From an uncultured Endomicrobiia bacterium (GTDB taxonomy: Bacteria > Elusimicrobiota > Endomicrobiia > DTEH01), in assembly GCA_937936785.1 (NCBI GenBank), contig CALDDQ010000001.1, positions 1 through 64,000 of the forward strand: a stretch of 64,000 nt of DNA. Reading direction: 5' to 3'. Positions within the stretch are counted from its first letter, which is position 1, and every line of letters begins with the position of its first letter. The notes beneath the pieces were generated by a model, which saw only the letters and a list, made by a program, of their open reading frames with translations, was not told the DNA's origin and made no database searches. Positions 31,511 through 36,866 of this stretch are shown here, piece after piece. A program made the translations under genes and the position numbers.

Positions 31511-32457
31511 AAAGTACAAATAAACTTAAATTAGCAGTTTTATATGGTGGATTTTCGTCAGAAAGACAAATTAGTTTAAAAACTGGAAAAGCTGTATATG
31601 CTACATTATTAGAGAATAAAAAGTATAAAGTTACACTAATAGATTTAAAAAAAAATAATTATATAAAGAAGTTATTAGAATTAAAGAAAGATAAAGTTGG
31701 TTTAATATTTAATGCTCTTCATGGTAAGTTTGGTGAAGATGGGAAATTACAATCTTTGTTAGACATTTTAGGATTAAAATATACAGGAGCAAATGCATTA
31801 TCAAGTGCAATTGCCATGAATAAAGTGTTAACAAAAGGTCTATTATTAAAAAATAAAATTTTAACTCCTAAATATTGGGTTTTAAACGATGAAAAGAATG
31901 CTTTAAATTTAATAAAAAAATATAATATAACTTTTCCTTTAGTTGTTAAACCGGTAAGTGAAGGTTCTGCAATTGGTGTTTCTGTAATAAAATCTAATAA
32001 CGAATTAAATGAAGCATTAAAATTGGCTTTTAAATATAACAGTAGTGTTTTGGTAGAAAAATATATAAGTGGTAGAGAACTAAGTGTACCAATTTTAGGA
32101 AATGAAGTTTTACCAATAATAGAAATAAAGCCAAATTATAATATGTTTTATGATTATGAATCAAAATATAAAAATGGTGGTTCTATACATACAATTCCTG
32201 CACGGTTAAATAAAAATTTATACCATAAAATTTCTAATATAGCAATTAAATCTATGAAAGTTATTGGTTGTGAGGTTATGTGTAGAGTAGATATTATTGT
32301 TGATGAAAATAATGAACCTTATGTTTTAGAAATAAATACAATTCCCGGAATGACAGAAACTTCTTTATTTCCAGAAGCTGCAAAAGAGTATGGGATAGAA
32401 TTTCCTTGTTTGTTAGATAAAATAATAGATTTATCTATTAAAAAATATTGTGTATAA
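31507..32457 (+). CDS. ddl: D-alanine-D-alanine ligase
   Basis: 316 residues, ATP-grasp. It joins two D-alanines for the peptidoglycan stem. Seen are LYGGFSSERQISLKTG at the N-terminus, ALHGKFGEDGKLQ, YTGANALSSAIAMNK, the ATP-binding VVKPVSEGSAIGVS, VEKYISGRELSVP, and the metal site CRVDIIVDE with EINTIPGMTETSL. The omega-loop segment MFYDYESKY carries Tyr, consistent with D-Ala-D-Ala rather than D-Ala-D-Lac activity, though this is inferred. ATGA overlap with murB. Confidence 0.96.
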   Translation: MKSTNKLKLAVLYGGFSSERQISLKTGKAVYATLLENKKYKVTLIDLKKNNYIKKLLELKKDKVGLIFNALHGKFGEDGKLQSLLDILGLKYTGANALSSAIAMNKVLTKGLLLKNKILTPKYWVLNDEKNALNLIKKYNITFPLVVKPVSEGSAIGVSVIKSNNELNEALKLAFKYNSSVLVEKYISGRELSVPILGNEVLPIIEIKPNYNMFYDYESKYKNGGSIHTIPARLNKNLYHKISNIAIKSMKVIGCEVMCRVDIIVDENNEPYVLEINTIPGMTETSLFPEAAKEYGIEFPCLLDKIIDLSIKKYCV

Positions 32458-32481
32458 TGATATTTGGTTTTTTGAATTTTT

Positions 32482-33285
32482 ATGCGAAAATATTATAGCA
32501 GAAATAAAAAATATAAATTTAAAAAGAATAAATATTATAAAGTATTTTATACCAAAAAAAAATATTATAAAAAAAATAATTTTAGAAAAGTTTTTGTAAT
32601 TTTTTTATCTTTAGTCAACTTGGTGAGTATAGTAACAATAATTTTTTATTTTGTTTTATATCTAAAAACAATAGACTTACATTCTATAATTGGAATCAAT
32701 CAAATTTCAATTTTAAAAAATGAAACGACAATACCTTCTGAATTGGTTATAAAAAAATTTTTTGAGGAAAAAATTAATATATTTAATCTAAATAGGGTGA
32801 AACACAATATTATTAGAATATTGCCAGAAATAAAAAATATAGAATTTAAGATTCGTTTGATTAATAATTGTTCATCTGAAATAAAAAAACAAGAACCAGT
32901 TTTTGTAGTAGATAATAAAAAACAAAAAATATTTTATTCAGCAAACGGGGCGAAATTTTGGGTTTATGATATATCAAAGAGTAATATTGATAACTTAATT
33001 GAATTAAACATAGAAAAATCTGTTAATGCAAAATTTTTAACAAGTTTTTATAAACATATAGATATTACACAAAAAAAATATTTAATAAAAAAAGTTTATT
33101 TTAAACATAATGATGAAATTATAATAGAAACTATTTCAGGAAACAAAATAATTGTAGATAAAAATTTAATTAATGTAGAACCAGAGTTATTTGCTAAGAC
33201 TCTTGAAATTGCAGAGAAAGAAAATGTTGATATTTATGGTAGGAATTTAGAGGATGGAAAATTATATATTAGGAAACGAAATTAG
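32482..33285 (+). CDS. ftsQ: FtsQ/DivIB-like cell division protein
   Basis: 267 residues. The first 35 residues are a very basic Lys/Tyr cytoplasmic tail. A transmembrane helix (about 39-62) follows, then a region matching a POTRA domain (GINQISILKNETTIPSELVIKKFFE, NIFNLNRVKHNIIRILPEIKNIEFKI) and a beta domain (QEPVFVVD). FtsQ-type proteins are single-pass division factors that link early and late divisomal proteins. Sequence conservation in this family is low, so position between ddl and ftsA carries much of the weight. Confidence 0.8.
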   Translation: MRKYYSRNKKYKFKKNKYYKVFYTKKKYYKKNNFRKVFVIFLSLVNLVSIVTIIFYFVLYLKTIDLHSIIGINQISILKNETTIPSELVIKKFFEEKINIFNLNRVKHNIIRILPEIKNIEFKIRLINNCSSEIKKQEPVFVVDNKKQKIFYSANGAKFWVYDISKSNIDNLIELNIEKSVNAKFLTSFYKHIDITQKKYLIKKVYFKHNDEIIIETISGNKIIVDKNLINVEPELFAKTLEIAEKENVDIYGRNLEDGKLYIRKRN

Positions 33286-33314
33286 TTTGAGTTTAAGTAT
33301 ATAGCAATTTAATA

Positions 33315-34350
33315 ATGAAAAGTAATTTTAAAAATATTTTTTATACTATATTTTTTAAATTTTTTTTTTGTTTTATTTGGTATTATTTTTGCAATAAGTA
33401 TAATAGAATTGTTTCTAAGAGTTTTACAAAAATATAGTTTTAGTTCTATGACTCATATGCATCACATATATTCAGGAAATTTTTTTAAAAGATATAGACC
33501 ATCTAAATTATTTGGTTATGAACTTGTTCCAAATTTGTTCTTTGAAGAAGATAGTAATTCCAACACAAATTCTTTTGGTATGAGGGATAAAGAGTATATT
33601 ATAGAAAAACCAACAGATACTTTTAGAATTCTTTTATTAGGAGATTCAACTTCAGAAACGCCTATTTGGCATGTTAAATTAGAAGAAAATTTAAATAAAG
33701 ATTTTAAATGTGAGATATTAAATGCTGCTGTATCAGGATGGAACATATATCAATATTGGCAGTATGTTAAGAACAAAACCAAAATTTTTAAACCAGATCT
33801 TATATTAATAGCATTTTGTTTAAATGATTTAAATGGTACATCTTATGTTCCTACTATACTTTTTGAACAAGATAAAATTATATTTTTTTCTATAAAAAGT
33901 AATAATATATGTTCAACCATTACTAAAACAACTTCTATAAATCCTTATATTTTTAAACATTCATATGTTTATAGATTTTTAGTAAATAGATTTATTATTT
34001 CAAAAGCTGAAAAGTATCCTTTTAGTCAAGATATGGATGAAAAAGAAATAGTTAAAGATATGTTATTAGAGATTAAACAAATTGCTAATAATAAGATTTT
34101 AGCAATAATATTTCCTTATTTAAAACCTTTGGAACAATATAATGAAACTCAAAATAGACAATATGTGTTTACTAAGGAAATGTTAAATTTAACTTCAATA
34201 AAATTTTTAGATTTAACAGAATATTTTAATAGTTTTGGAAAAGATATAATTAAATTCAGAGATAAACCAACAGATGAAATTCATTTTAATGAAAAAGCAA
34301 ATAACTTAAAATCAGAAATAATTTATAAATGGTTGAAAGAAAATTTATAA
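33315..34350 (+). CDS. SGNH/GDSL-type hydrolase, single-pass, frameshifted at a T10 tract
   Basis: The frame that ends at 34350 is clearly an SGNH-fold protein: block I LLLGDSTSE, block II AAVSGWNIYQY, block III AFCLNDLNG and block V DEIHFNEKAN. In that frame the only start is a TTG at 33409, yet the coding sequence continues upstream as a membrane helix (VLFGIIFAISIIELFL) back to about 33361 with no ATG. The ATG at 33315 opens a different frame (MKSNFKNIFYTIFFKFFF) that joins it exactly if one T is removed from the ten T at 33360-33369. The intact product would be about 345 residues with an N-terminal anchor. Such proteins act as esterases or O-acetyl-group hydrolases/transferases; being between ftsQ and ftsA, a cell-wall role is possible. 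The frameshift may be an assembly error, slippage or a real mutation. Confidence 0.75.
33360..33369 (+). other. T10 homopolymer at a predicted +1 frameshift
   Basis: Ten consecutive T within the SGNH-type hydrolase gene. With nine T, the frame from ATG 33315 becomes continuous with the downstream domain. Runs of this length are prone to polymerase slippage and to sequencing error. Confidence 0.7.
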
Positions 34351-34401
34351 TATGTAAATGAAAAATAATTTTTAAAATAATGTATTTTATATTATAAAAT
34401 A

Positions 34402-34430
34402 TTGAATTTTGTTGAAAACAATTATATAAA
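34402..34430 (+). promoter_or_regulatory. Candidate promoter for ftsA-ftsZ-pilT
   Basis: TTGAAT at 34402-34407, a 17-base spacer, then TATAAA at 34425-34430, ending 33 bases before the ftsA start, in a 113-base gap. Ideal spacing and one to two mismatches per box. Confidence 0.5.
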
Positions 34431-34463
34431 TAATTTGAGAGTCTTTTTGTGAGGTATATAATT

Positions 34464-35744
34464 ATGCCAAAAGATGAAATATATTGTGGGTTAGATATAG
34501 GTTCAGGTAGGATAACTGTTGTTTTAGGTAAATATAATGAAGAAACAGATGAAATAGAAGTTTTAGCAGGGAAACAATCTATAGATAGAGATGCTTTTAC
34601 AGCAGGAGTGGTAAAAGATGTTGAGAAAGCTAGTAATATAATTTCAGAAACTATAAATGAAGTAGAAGAATCTGCCAAAACTAATAAGACTAACATTATT
34701 GTTGGTGTTCGTGGAAGGTTTGTTCAGACATATGATATCAAAGCTCAAATACCAATAACTTCTGCAGATAAAACTATTACTGTTGAGGACCAAGAAAAAG
34801 TTGAAGATTTAGCTGTGAAAAGTCTAAGAATATCTTCTGAACGGGAAATTATAGATGTAATTCCTAAAGATTATATTATAGATGGACAACCTGGTATAAA
34901 CAATCCTGTAGGCATGGAAGGTAGTATGTTAGAAATTGATGCACATGTAGTTGTTGCATATTCAACTTTTTTACGTAACATAGAACGTACCCTGGCGAAT
35001 GCGAACTATGCACCAGAAAAAATTATATATTCATTAATACCAGTAAGTGAAATAGTTACAGAAAGTGAAGAAAGAAAGCTTGGGACTTTAGTAATAGATT
35101 TCAATGGTCAAACTATTGGTGCAGTAATTTATAATGATGGATATATTAAATACAGTAAAGAATTCTATGATAACGAAATAGATATTGGAAGTGATATGAT
35201 AACACGAGATATTTCTTCTTATTATAAAACCTCTTGGAACATTGCAGAAAATATTAAACAACAATATGGAATAGCAAAACCATCTTTGGTCAAAAAAGAT
35301 GAACAGATAGAAATTCCTTCCAGAGATGGTAAAACAATGAAAACTACCAATAGAAAAGGATTATCACAAGTGATAGCAGCACGGTTGGAAGATTTGTTTG
35401 TATCCAGAGTTATACCTGATCTAAAAAATACAAATTTGTTAGAAATAGTTTTACGTTCCGGTGATATAGTTTTAACTGGTGGTGGTGCAAATATGTCTGG
35501 TATAATTAATGCTATTGAAGATTTATTTTCTCACGAATGTGGTATTGAAGTTGAGGCTAGAATTGGAACTGTAGGTTTAGAAACTGGGATTGTCGGTCCT
35601 GAAGATATAATTTCGAATTTTTCATATACAACAGCAATAAGTTTGATAAAATATGAAATTACACATATGCGAAGGAATATGTTTACAAAACGTGGTTCGA
35701 GAAAAACTAATATATTTAAAAAATTATGGGACTTATTTGAATAA
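34464..35744 (+). CDS. ftsA: Cell division protein FtsA
   Basis: 426 residues from ATG 34464, with GAGG upstream; the in-frame GTG at 34449 overlaps that site. FtsA is an actin-like ATPase that tethers FtsZ to the membrane. Landmarks: phosphate-1 YCGLDIGSGRITVVLG, the SHS2-type 1C domain (GVVKDVEKASNIISETIN, FVQTYDIKAQIPI, EREIIDVIPKDYIIDG), phosphate-2 LVIDFNGQTIGAVIY, the adenosine loop IVLTGGGANMSGI, and a C-terminal amphipathic helix NIFKKLWDLFE that fits the membrane-targeting sequence. FtsZ follows 12 bases later. Confidence 0.96.
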   Translation: MPKDEIYCGLDIGSGRITVVLGKYNEETDEIEVLAGKQSIDRDAFTAGVVKDVEKASNIISETINEVEESAKTNKTNIIVGVRGRFVQTYDIKAQIPITSADKTITVEDQEKVEDLAVKSLRISSEREIIDVIPKDYIIDGQPGINNPVGMEGSMLEIDAHVVVAYSTFLRNIERTLANANYAPEKIIYSLIPVSEIVTESEERKLGTLVIDFNGQTIGAVIYNDGYIKYSKEFYDNEIDIGSDMITRDISSYYKTSWNIAENIKQQYGIAKPSLVKKDEQIEIPSRDGKTMKTTNRKGLSQVIAARLEDLFVSRVIPDLKNTNLLEIVLRSGDIVLTGGGANMSGIINAIEDLFSHECGIEVEARIGTVGLETGIVGPEDIISNFSYTTAISLIKYEITHMRRNMFTKRGSRKTNIFKKLWDLFE

Positions 35745-35756
35745 TTAAATAATATT

Positions 35757-36866
35757 ATGAACAATACTATAATAAATCCTGTAAAAATAAAAATTATTGG
35801 AGTAGGAGGAGGTGGCGGTAATGCAGTAAACAGGATGATTTCTTCAGGACTTATTGATGCGAATGGAGTTGAGTTTATAACAATGAACACTGATGTGCAA
35901 GCATTGAGAAATTCTTCTTCACATATAACAATACAGTTGGGAGTAAAAACTACCAAAGGACAAGGTTCAGGTGGAGATCCAAAGATAGGTCAAGCTTCAG
36001 CAGAAGAATCTATAGAAATTATTAAGGAACTCTTATCAAATACTGATCTTGTATTTCTAACTTGTGGAATGGGTGGTGGAACAGGAACAGGTGCAACACC
36101 TGTTATTGCGAAAGTGGCAAAATCGTTAGGTGTTCTAACTGTAGGTATTGTAACAAAACCGTTTAGTAAATTGGAAGGAAAAGACCGAACACATAAAGCA
36201 GAACTTGGAATTACAGAACTTAGAAAGTATGTAGATGCTTTACTTGTGATTCAAAATGATAGGTTTTTAGAAATATATCCTGATGTAAGTTTTTTGGATA
36301 TATTATGTCGGTTTTCTGATGATGTGATTTATAAGGCAGTATTAAGTATATGGAATGTTGTAACAAGACCTGGTCATGTAAATGTAGATTTTGCTGATGC
36401 GAAATCAGTTTTAAAGGATGCTGGAGATATAATAATGACAGTAGGTTCTATTGATGAAGATACGGAAAATAAAGTTATAAAAACAATAAAAAAAGCATTA
36501 AATAATCCTTTGATTGAGAATATTTCAATTGAAGGAGCTAGAAAATTATTAGTAAACATATGTGGAGTAGACATTGTAGCAAGTGATATGAAAATGGTAG
36601 GAGAATTTTTGTCACAAACAATTGCTCCTGATGCACATGTTTTTGTTGGGTATGTCCCAGATCCTAGTTATGGTAAAAAGGTAGAAATTACACTTATAGC
36701 GAGCGGATTTCCAACAACTGTTAAACAGCGTAAAAATATTAAAAAACGACGAGAAGATAATAGAAGTATAGACAACTTAAATATTTCTGCAATTAATACT
36801 GGGAACAATAATATTGATATTAGTAAAATACCTGCTATAGAACGTGGGTTAAGAATTTTGAAATAA
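35757..36866 (+). CDS. ftsZ: Cell division protein FtsZ
   Basis: 369 residues. It is the tubulin-like GTPase forming the division ring. Motifs: GVGGGGGNAVNRMI, NTDVQALRNS, the tubulin signature GMGGGTGTGATPVIA, the synergy loop NVDFADAKSVL that completes the active site of the next subunit, and a C-terminal peptide (ISKIPAIERGLRIL) resembling the conserved FtsA-binding tail. The linker between core and tail is short (about 30 residues). It is followed by pilT after three bases. Confidence 0.97.
   Translation: MNNTIINPVKIKIIGVGGGGGNAVNRMISSGLIDANGVEFITMNTDVQALRNSSSHITIQLGVKTTKGQGSGGDPKIGQASAEESIEIIKELLSNTDLVFLTCGMGGGTGTGATPVIAKVAKSLGVLTVGIVTKPFSKLEGKDRTHKAELGITELRKYVDALLVIQNDRFLEIYPDVSFLDILCRFSDDVIYKAVLSIWNVVTRPGHVNVDFADAKSVLKDAGDIIMTVGSIDEDTENKVIKTIKKALNNPLIENISIEGARKLLVNICGVDIVASDMKMVGEFLSQTIAPDAHVFVGYVPDPSYGKKVEITLIASGFPTTVKQRKNIKKRREDNRSIDNLNISAINTGNNNIDISKIPAIERGLRILK

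Follow-up and report, generated by a model that had tools for sequence, protein, structure and literature searches.

An SGNH-hydrolase gene inserted between ftsQ and ftsA of an uncultured Endomicrobiia bacterium has its membrane anchor split over two reading frames, with a run of ten T as the likely break

In the division cluster of an uncultured Endomicrobiia bacterium, a gene for an SGNH hydrolase stands between ftsQ and ftsA with its N-terminal membrane anchor divided between two reading frames, and the likely site of the break is a run of ten T (T10). The gene lies in the first 64,000 nucleotides (nt) of contig CALDDQ010000001.1 (GenBank assembly GCA_937936785.1), a stretch that we call the window and that has a G+C content of 26%; the source genome comprises 1.56 Mb in 25 contigs and is 95.9% complete. 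The reading that we favour, and that we hold at about even confidence, is a real slip in the run, recent or polymorphic, in a dispensable acquired gene. Both the T10 and the distribution of the anchor over two frames, which an initial annotation of the window had described, are present in the sequence (Table 1).

Results

The SGNH frame opens directly after a TGA that overlaps ATG 33315, and it contains no ATG, GTG, TTG or CTG upstream of TTG 33409. A genuine start at this TTG can be ruled out, because the alignment with homologous proteins places it as a Leu codon within a conserved E-L-x-x-R motif. Homology also reaches further upstream than this codon, since adding the residues ahead of it raises the bit scores for both of the nearest homologues, which come from genomes of the same class, from 249.6 to 261.4 for the one in genome G048 and from 248.4 to 255.5 for the one in G037. 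There is no Shine–Dalgarno-like match upstream of TTG 33409, which is a weak test given that 23 of 47 window starts are also without one. The initial annotation had named relatives that start at TTG 33409 without an anchor as the finding that would speak against a split gene; when this was tested, the relatives were found to have the anchor.

The homologues were collected by tblastn at E 1e-3 against loci fetched beforehand, and against those loci alone, which gave 70 distinct open reading frames (ORFs), extended to the upstream stop and not to a known start, many of them distant. Five ORFs cut at their 5' end were left out. A hydrophobic stretch of 19 residues precedes the catalytic block in 61 of the 65 that remain, and a Glu-x-x-x-Arg/His/Lys motif follows close after it in 40 of the 65. 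The other four lacked such a segment by score, but for L080, L086 and L099 this is solely because the scan stopped at an early motif match, and an earlier scan gave a hydrophobic segment in each of these three. As far as homology shows, the anchor thus appears to be real. The homologues L002 (42% identity) and L003 (in G037; 40% identity) resemble the window protein in having both the anchor and the E-L-x-x-R motif, but unlike the window gene they are in frame and adjoin neither ftsQ nor ftsA. Seven more distant homologues with a complete 5' end are likewise all in frame. When genome contigs were searched, the single protein as query gave no matches and an alignment as query gave 50 loci, many distant or partial; the best homologue in this profile search belongs to the Endomicrobiales metagenome-assembled genome Zod_Metabat.1366.

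A near homologue in G048 is followed directly by a gene for a 546-residue DUF6311 protein (L059:6044-8728; PF19830, 1.3e-43), which is perhaps its functional partner; in the window, ftsA stands in that place instead.

The initial annotation had also taken the open, hydrophobic frame upstream of the listed start as a sign that it is coding. If T10 is the break, this holds only for 33370-33408. The openness before the run would then be incidental; taken at face value, it would favour a break closer to the ATG. Given how often stops occur off frame in window genes (0.115-0.120 per codon), 30 open codons arise by chance with p ~0.02-0.03.

Both frames are open between ATG 33315 and the T10, and the site of the break is therefore not fixed by the sequence alone. 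T10, which had been proposed as the site, is the longest run in the overlap of the two frames. The spacing from the last Lys or Arg to the Glu of the motif also bears on the question: among the 40 homologues with the motif it is 14-20 residues in 34, with 15 as the commonest value (11 of 40), and in none is it 24 or more (one of these spacings, the 0 of L123, is an artefact that was kept in the count). Counted by hand, the spacing from the last Lys in the window protein would be 15 for a break at T10 and 24 for a break near the ATG. This comparison mildly favours T10, and only mildly because the two nearest homologues have a spacing of 19, about midway between the two values. Since long runs are also known to be unstable, T10 is the likely site and the best candidate for the break, though not the only possible one.

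The same evidence bears on a reading in which T10 is not the site of a break: either the SGNH frame is translated from a non-standard codon, ATT or ATA, or the two frames part near the ATG. It would account for a frame that is open and hydrophobic back to 33319, and the structure model shows a confident helix (residues 2-35) when the protein is read in this way. We regard it as very improbable all the same: the spacing would be 24, which none of the 40 homologues with the motif has, and ATT 33325 is without a Shine–Dalgarno-like match, although this too is a weak test. Non-standard starts are very rare.

Table 1. Features of the split gene and its flanking division genes (window coordinates).
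Feature	Position	Strand	Remarks
ORF from ATG 33315	33315..33437	+	40 codons, stop TAG at 33435-33437; its first part probably encodes the true N-terminus of the SGNH protein
T10 run	33360..33369	+	likely site of the frame break, in the overlap of both frames
SGNH open frame	33319..34350	+	343 codons plus stop, open over 33319-34347
Second half of membrane anchor	33370..33420	+	ends E-L-F-L-R; aligned to homologue anchors; within helix 2-35 of the model
Glu30 codon	33406..33408	+	nearly invariant in 22 aligned sequences including the window; adjoins TTG 33409 upstream
TTG, listed ORF start	33409..33411	+	Leu codon of the E-L-x-x-R motif by alignment
First ATG in SGNH frame	33448..33450	+	reinitiation here, 10 nt past the stop of the 40-codon ORF, might give an anchorless protein
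Block I G-D-S, catalytic Ser110	33640..33648	+	G108-D109-S110
Block III Asn169	33823..33825	+	by alignment
Block V Asp319-x-x-His322	34273..34284	+	by alignment
ftsQ	32482..33285	+	lies between ddl and ftsA and is named for this; Pfam gave no match above cut-off
ftsA	34449..35744	+	Pfam; ORF listed from GTG 34449, ATG 34464 the more likely start

Downstream of the anchor the enzyme looks complete. In a 22-row alignment (A2) of the window protein with 21 of the 70 homologue ORFs, residues D109, S110, D319 and H322 are invariant and G108 and N169 nearly so; in the window protein, block III reads C-L-N-D, with another residue in place of its Gly. The translation of 33409-34347 matches Pfam PF00657 (Lipase_GDSL) at 1.6e-6, with 28.9 bits against a cut-off of 23.6, while PF13472 reaches 25.4 bits, under its cut-off of 32.9, and NCBIfam gave nothing above cut-off. 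Profile matches to solved SGNH proteins go down to 3.1e-13 and Foldseek matches to solved SGNH structures to 9.2e-8. The structure model, with a mean predicted local distance difference test score (pLDDT) of 86.4 and a predicted template-modelling score (pTM) of 0.83, has a long N-terminal helix (residues 2-35) and a core that resembles solved SGNH proteins; the 50 structural matches listed have 10-15% identity and query TM values of 0.34-0.52, with only part of the model aligned. The acetylxylan esterase Axe2 (3w7v), TesA (1ivn) and PatB (7tjb) share with the window protein the predicted fold, the order of Ser, Asp and His, and the block III Asn, whereas the low identity and the N-terminal membrane helix with its E-L-x-x-R motif set the window protein apart from them. 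With the SGNH residues intact and the homologues anchored, the initial view of the product as a membrane-anchored SGNH protein agrees with these data. Judged from its sequence, the protein would be an N-terminally anchored, envelope-facing hydrolase of the esterase or acetyl-esterase type, where we infer the substrate, the side of the membrane and the activity.

Apart from the split of the anchor there is no second break in the SGNH frame. In a tree of the 22 rows the end branch of the window protein is 0.84 long, compared with 0.83 and 0.78 for the two nearest homologues by path. An old pseudogene is thus not supported, since the catalytic residues are in place and the branch is not clearly longer than that of its kin; for the same reasons, and because no other break is present, any loss looks recent. 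This leaves a recent loss of the frame, a loss in only some of the cells, or correction of the frame.

The position of the gene sets it apart from the clusters that we compared. Pfam-based names in the window include murC, murB, ddl, ftsA, ftsZ and pilT-like genes, where the Mur ligase match is presumably murC and the T2SSE match presumably pilT, in part by position. By eye, the same order of division-cluster genes is recognizable in the fetched stretches of seven other genomes, namely four of the same family and G037, G048 and G057. In all seven, ftsQ leads directly to ftsA with 23-102 nt between the ORFs, and in the window the SGNH frame sits between them (33286-34448). None of the four same-family genomes has an SGNH homologue at E 1e-3, and phylum-wide one was found at E 1e-15 or better in 12 of 339 other genomes. 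In a PF13472 search of the source genome, of which PF00657 was not part, the window gene was the only match, below the family cut-off. The gene is thus patchily distributed and inserted into the division cluster, and it is probably dispensable. Of the genomes examined, this is the only one in which it stands between ftsQ and ftsA, where it is probably an acquired gene.

Because the case depends on the length of a single run, we analyzed how the assembly renders such runs elsewhere. The genome has 18 A/T runs of at least 10 (17 of length 10 and one of 13), and all 18 were looked at, three in the window and 15 in fetched stretches. Of these, 12 fall in frame within ORFs and five were assigned to noncoding sequence; the last is the T10 of the window, the only out-of-frame run among 13 coding runs of this length. 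The 12 ORFs with an in-frame run include a tRNA synthetase and two UvrD-type helicases; nine have a Pfam match, the matched domain covering the run in seven and beginning after it in two, and the ORFs without a match are those in L015, L023 (53 codons) and L027. Within the window there are 80 runs of at least 8, of which 73 lie inside open ORFs of at least 90 codons and seven, including the T10, outside. We also compared the 57 window ORFs with 143 ORFs of the fetched same-family stretches: 18 were matched and 39 were without a match, and none of the 18 comparable ORFs showed a split frame or a strong shortfall. A general homopolymer error is therefore not supported, with 12 of 13 coding runs in frame and no comparable ORF broken. 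The assembly is not generally bad at runs, but it may contain a single error.

Compared with shuffled sequences, the window has fewer runs of at least 10 (3 vs 15.8), more runs of 8 (60 vs 45), and about the expected number of runs of 9 (17 vs 20). The scarcity of the longest runs is in line with selection against slippage-prone runs, which is described in an earlier study (PMC1088944).

Two further observations concern long runs outside the window gene. No A/T run in the genome exceeds the 13 A at L017:1520-1532 (G000 contig 4), which lie outside ORFs and approximately 15 nt upstream of an opposite-strand ORF of 150 codons that starts with GTG. At L015:1538-1550 and L018:1568-1580, the ORF starts consist of an ATG followed directly by A10 (M-K-K-K-I), such that one slip would break the first codons.

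Discussion

On the reading that we favour, the anchor would originally have been encoded with a run of Phe codons, and replication slippage would have changed the length of the T10 by one base, most likely by one extra T, so that ATG 33315 came to lie out of frame. The sequenced cells, or a part of the population, would then make a 40-residue hydrophobic peptide and not the enzyme. Where the gene is in frame, the N-terminal helix would hold the protein in the inner membrane and leave the enzyme on the outer side, where its targets would be acyl groups on envelope glycans or on other glycans, as the fold and the anchor suggest; where it is out of frame, reinitiation at ATG 33448 might give an anchorless protein. 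Here we infer that the cells themselves carry the change, that it arose recently or is polymorphic, and that they can do without the gene.

Several points weigh against this reading. The evidence comes from one consensus assembly, and a single T10 may be just the kind of place where a one-base consensus error occurs; many putative pseudogenes in public assemblies are reported to be artefacts (PMC11017572). Codon usage before the run hardly separates the two frames (-42.0 vs -43.6), and the helix of the model stays confident when the SGNH frame is extended upstream to 33319. The tree also flags the composition of the window protein as unusual, which makes its branch length a rough measure.

The main rival is accordingly an error of assembly or consensus, or a minority length variant that entered the consensus, in which case the gene would be in frame in most cells and encode an ordinary anchored SGNH protein. 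The intact remainder of the gene and a branch not clearly longer than that of its kin speak for this rival, the T10 is the longest run found inside a gene in this genome, and artefacts of the kind just cited are common. The same assembly, however, has the 12 other coding runs of such length in frame and none of the 18 comparable window genes broken, and we consider the rival a serious one but rather unlikely.

Frameshifts in A/T runs of AT-rich bacteria are already known, and the window case is an ordinary one. The frameshifted genes of Blochmannia and Buchnera, as three studies present them (PMC3017870, PMC4389277, PMC5009743), resemble the window gene in the AT-rich genome, in the intact remainder and probably in the one indel in an A/T run. 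Taking an indel in an A/T run of at least 9, with the rest in frame, as the mark of a slippage-corrected gene, the window gene has the run and the frame change, with T10 as the likely site. The Blochmannia and Buchnera genes differ in that some of those cases are conserved among relatives or shown at the transcript level, whereas the window gene is found in none of the four same-family genomes and is known from one assembly, and in that the source genome is larger than those of Blochmannia and Buchnera. The main text of a study of Endomicrobia genomes (PMC11257099) does not contain words on pseudogenes or pseudogenization, frameshift, homopolymer, slippage or ftsA.

On another reading, the frameshift is tolerated and partly corrected by slippage of RNA polymerase on the T10, as in Buchnera and Blochmannia, and the initial annotation had suggested that slippage there could restore the frame in some transcripts. 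Genes of this kind occur in AT-rich endosymbionts with 12-50% corrected transcripts (PMC5009743), six Blochmannia genomes have 4-8 of them each (PMC4389277; also PMC3017870), and the rate of deletions during transcription of runs in Buchnera increases with run length (PMC5574713). Slippage is thus possible, and a gene intact elsewhere would be suited to it, but the idea is weakened because the needed change runs against the usual direction: in A/T runs, transcription errors mostly add bases (PMC5574713), whereas the frame here would be restored by the loss of one base or the gain of two. We consider such correction distinctly unlikely.

The T10, one of the longest runs of its genome and close to the start of a gene for a likely envelope enzyme, could also be a phase-variable (contingency) tract, with replication slippage switching a surface-modifying enzyme on and off. 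We find this improbable, in view of the other 12 long coding runs, which are in frame; long runs are not confined to surface genes, because housekeeping genes (the tRNA synthetase and the two helicases) carry them as well. It is very improbable that the T10 acts as a length switch in the division operon, its length tuning envelope modification and division together. In-frame molecules would then give the membrane-anchored envelope enzyme, out-of-frame ones would give the 40-residue peptide and, by reinitiation at ATG 33448, an anchorless cytosolic SGNH protein, and the untranslated stretch could lower ftsA-ftsZ expression by polarity.

The main interest of the case lies in annotation. From an ORF caller one would expect a gene that starts at TTG 33409 and thus a soluble cytosolic protein, although the homologues place this codon within the motif of the anchor. 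A frameshift that is real and kept would point to possible run-length control in Elusimicrobiota; one that is not real would be another false frameshift in a draft genome.

A scan of 32400-35900 for promoters and terminators was uninformative, with 30 promoter-like sites where 30.7 were expected and no terminators where 0.6 were expected. In other genomes, the ftsA matches of G006, G017, G020, G027, G042, G049 and G058 each contain one in-match TAA, perhaps where the alignment ends at the C-terminus.
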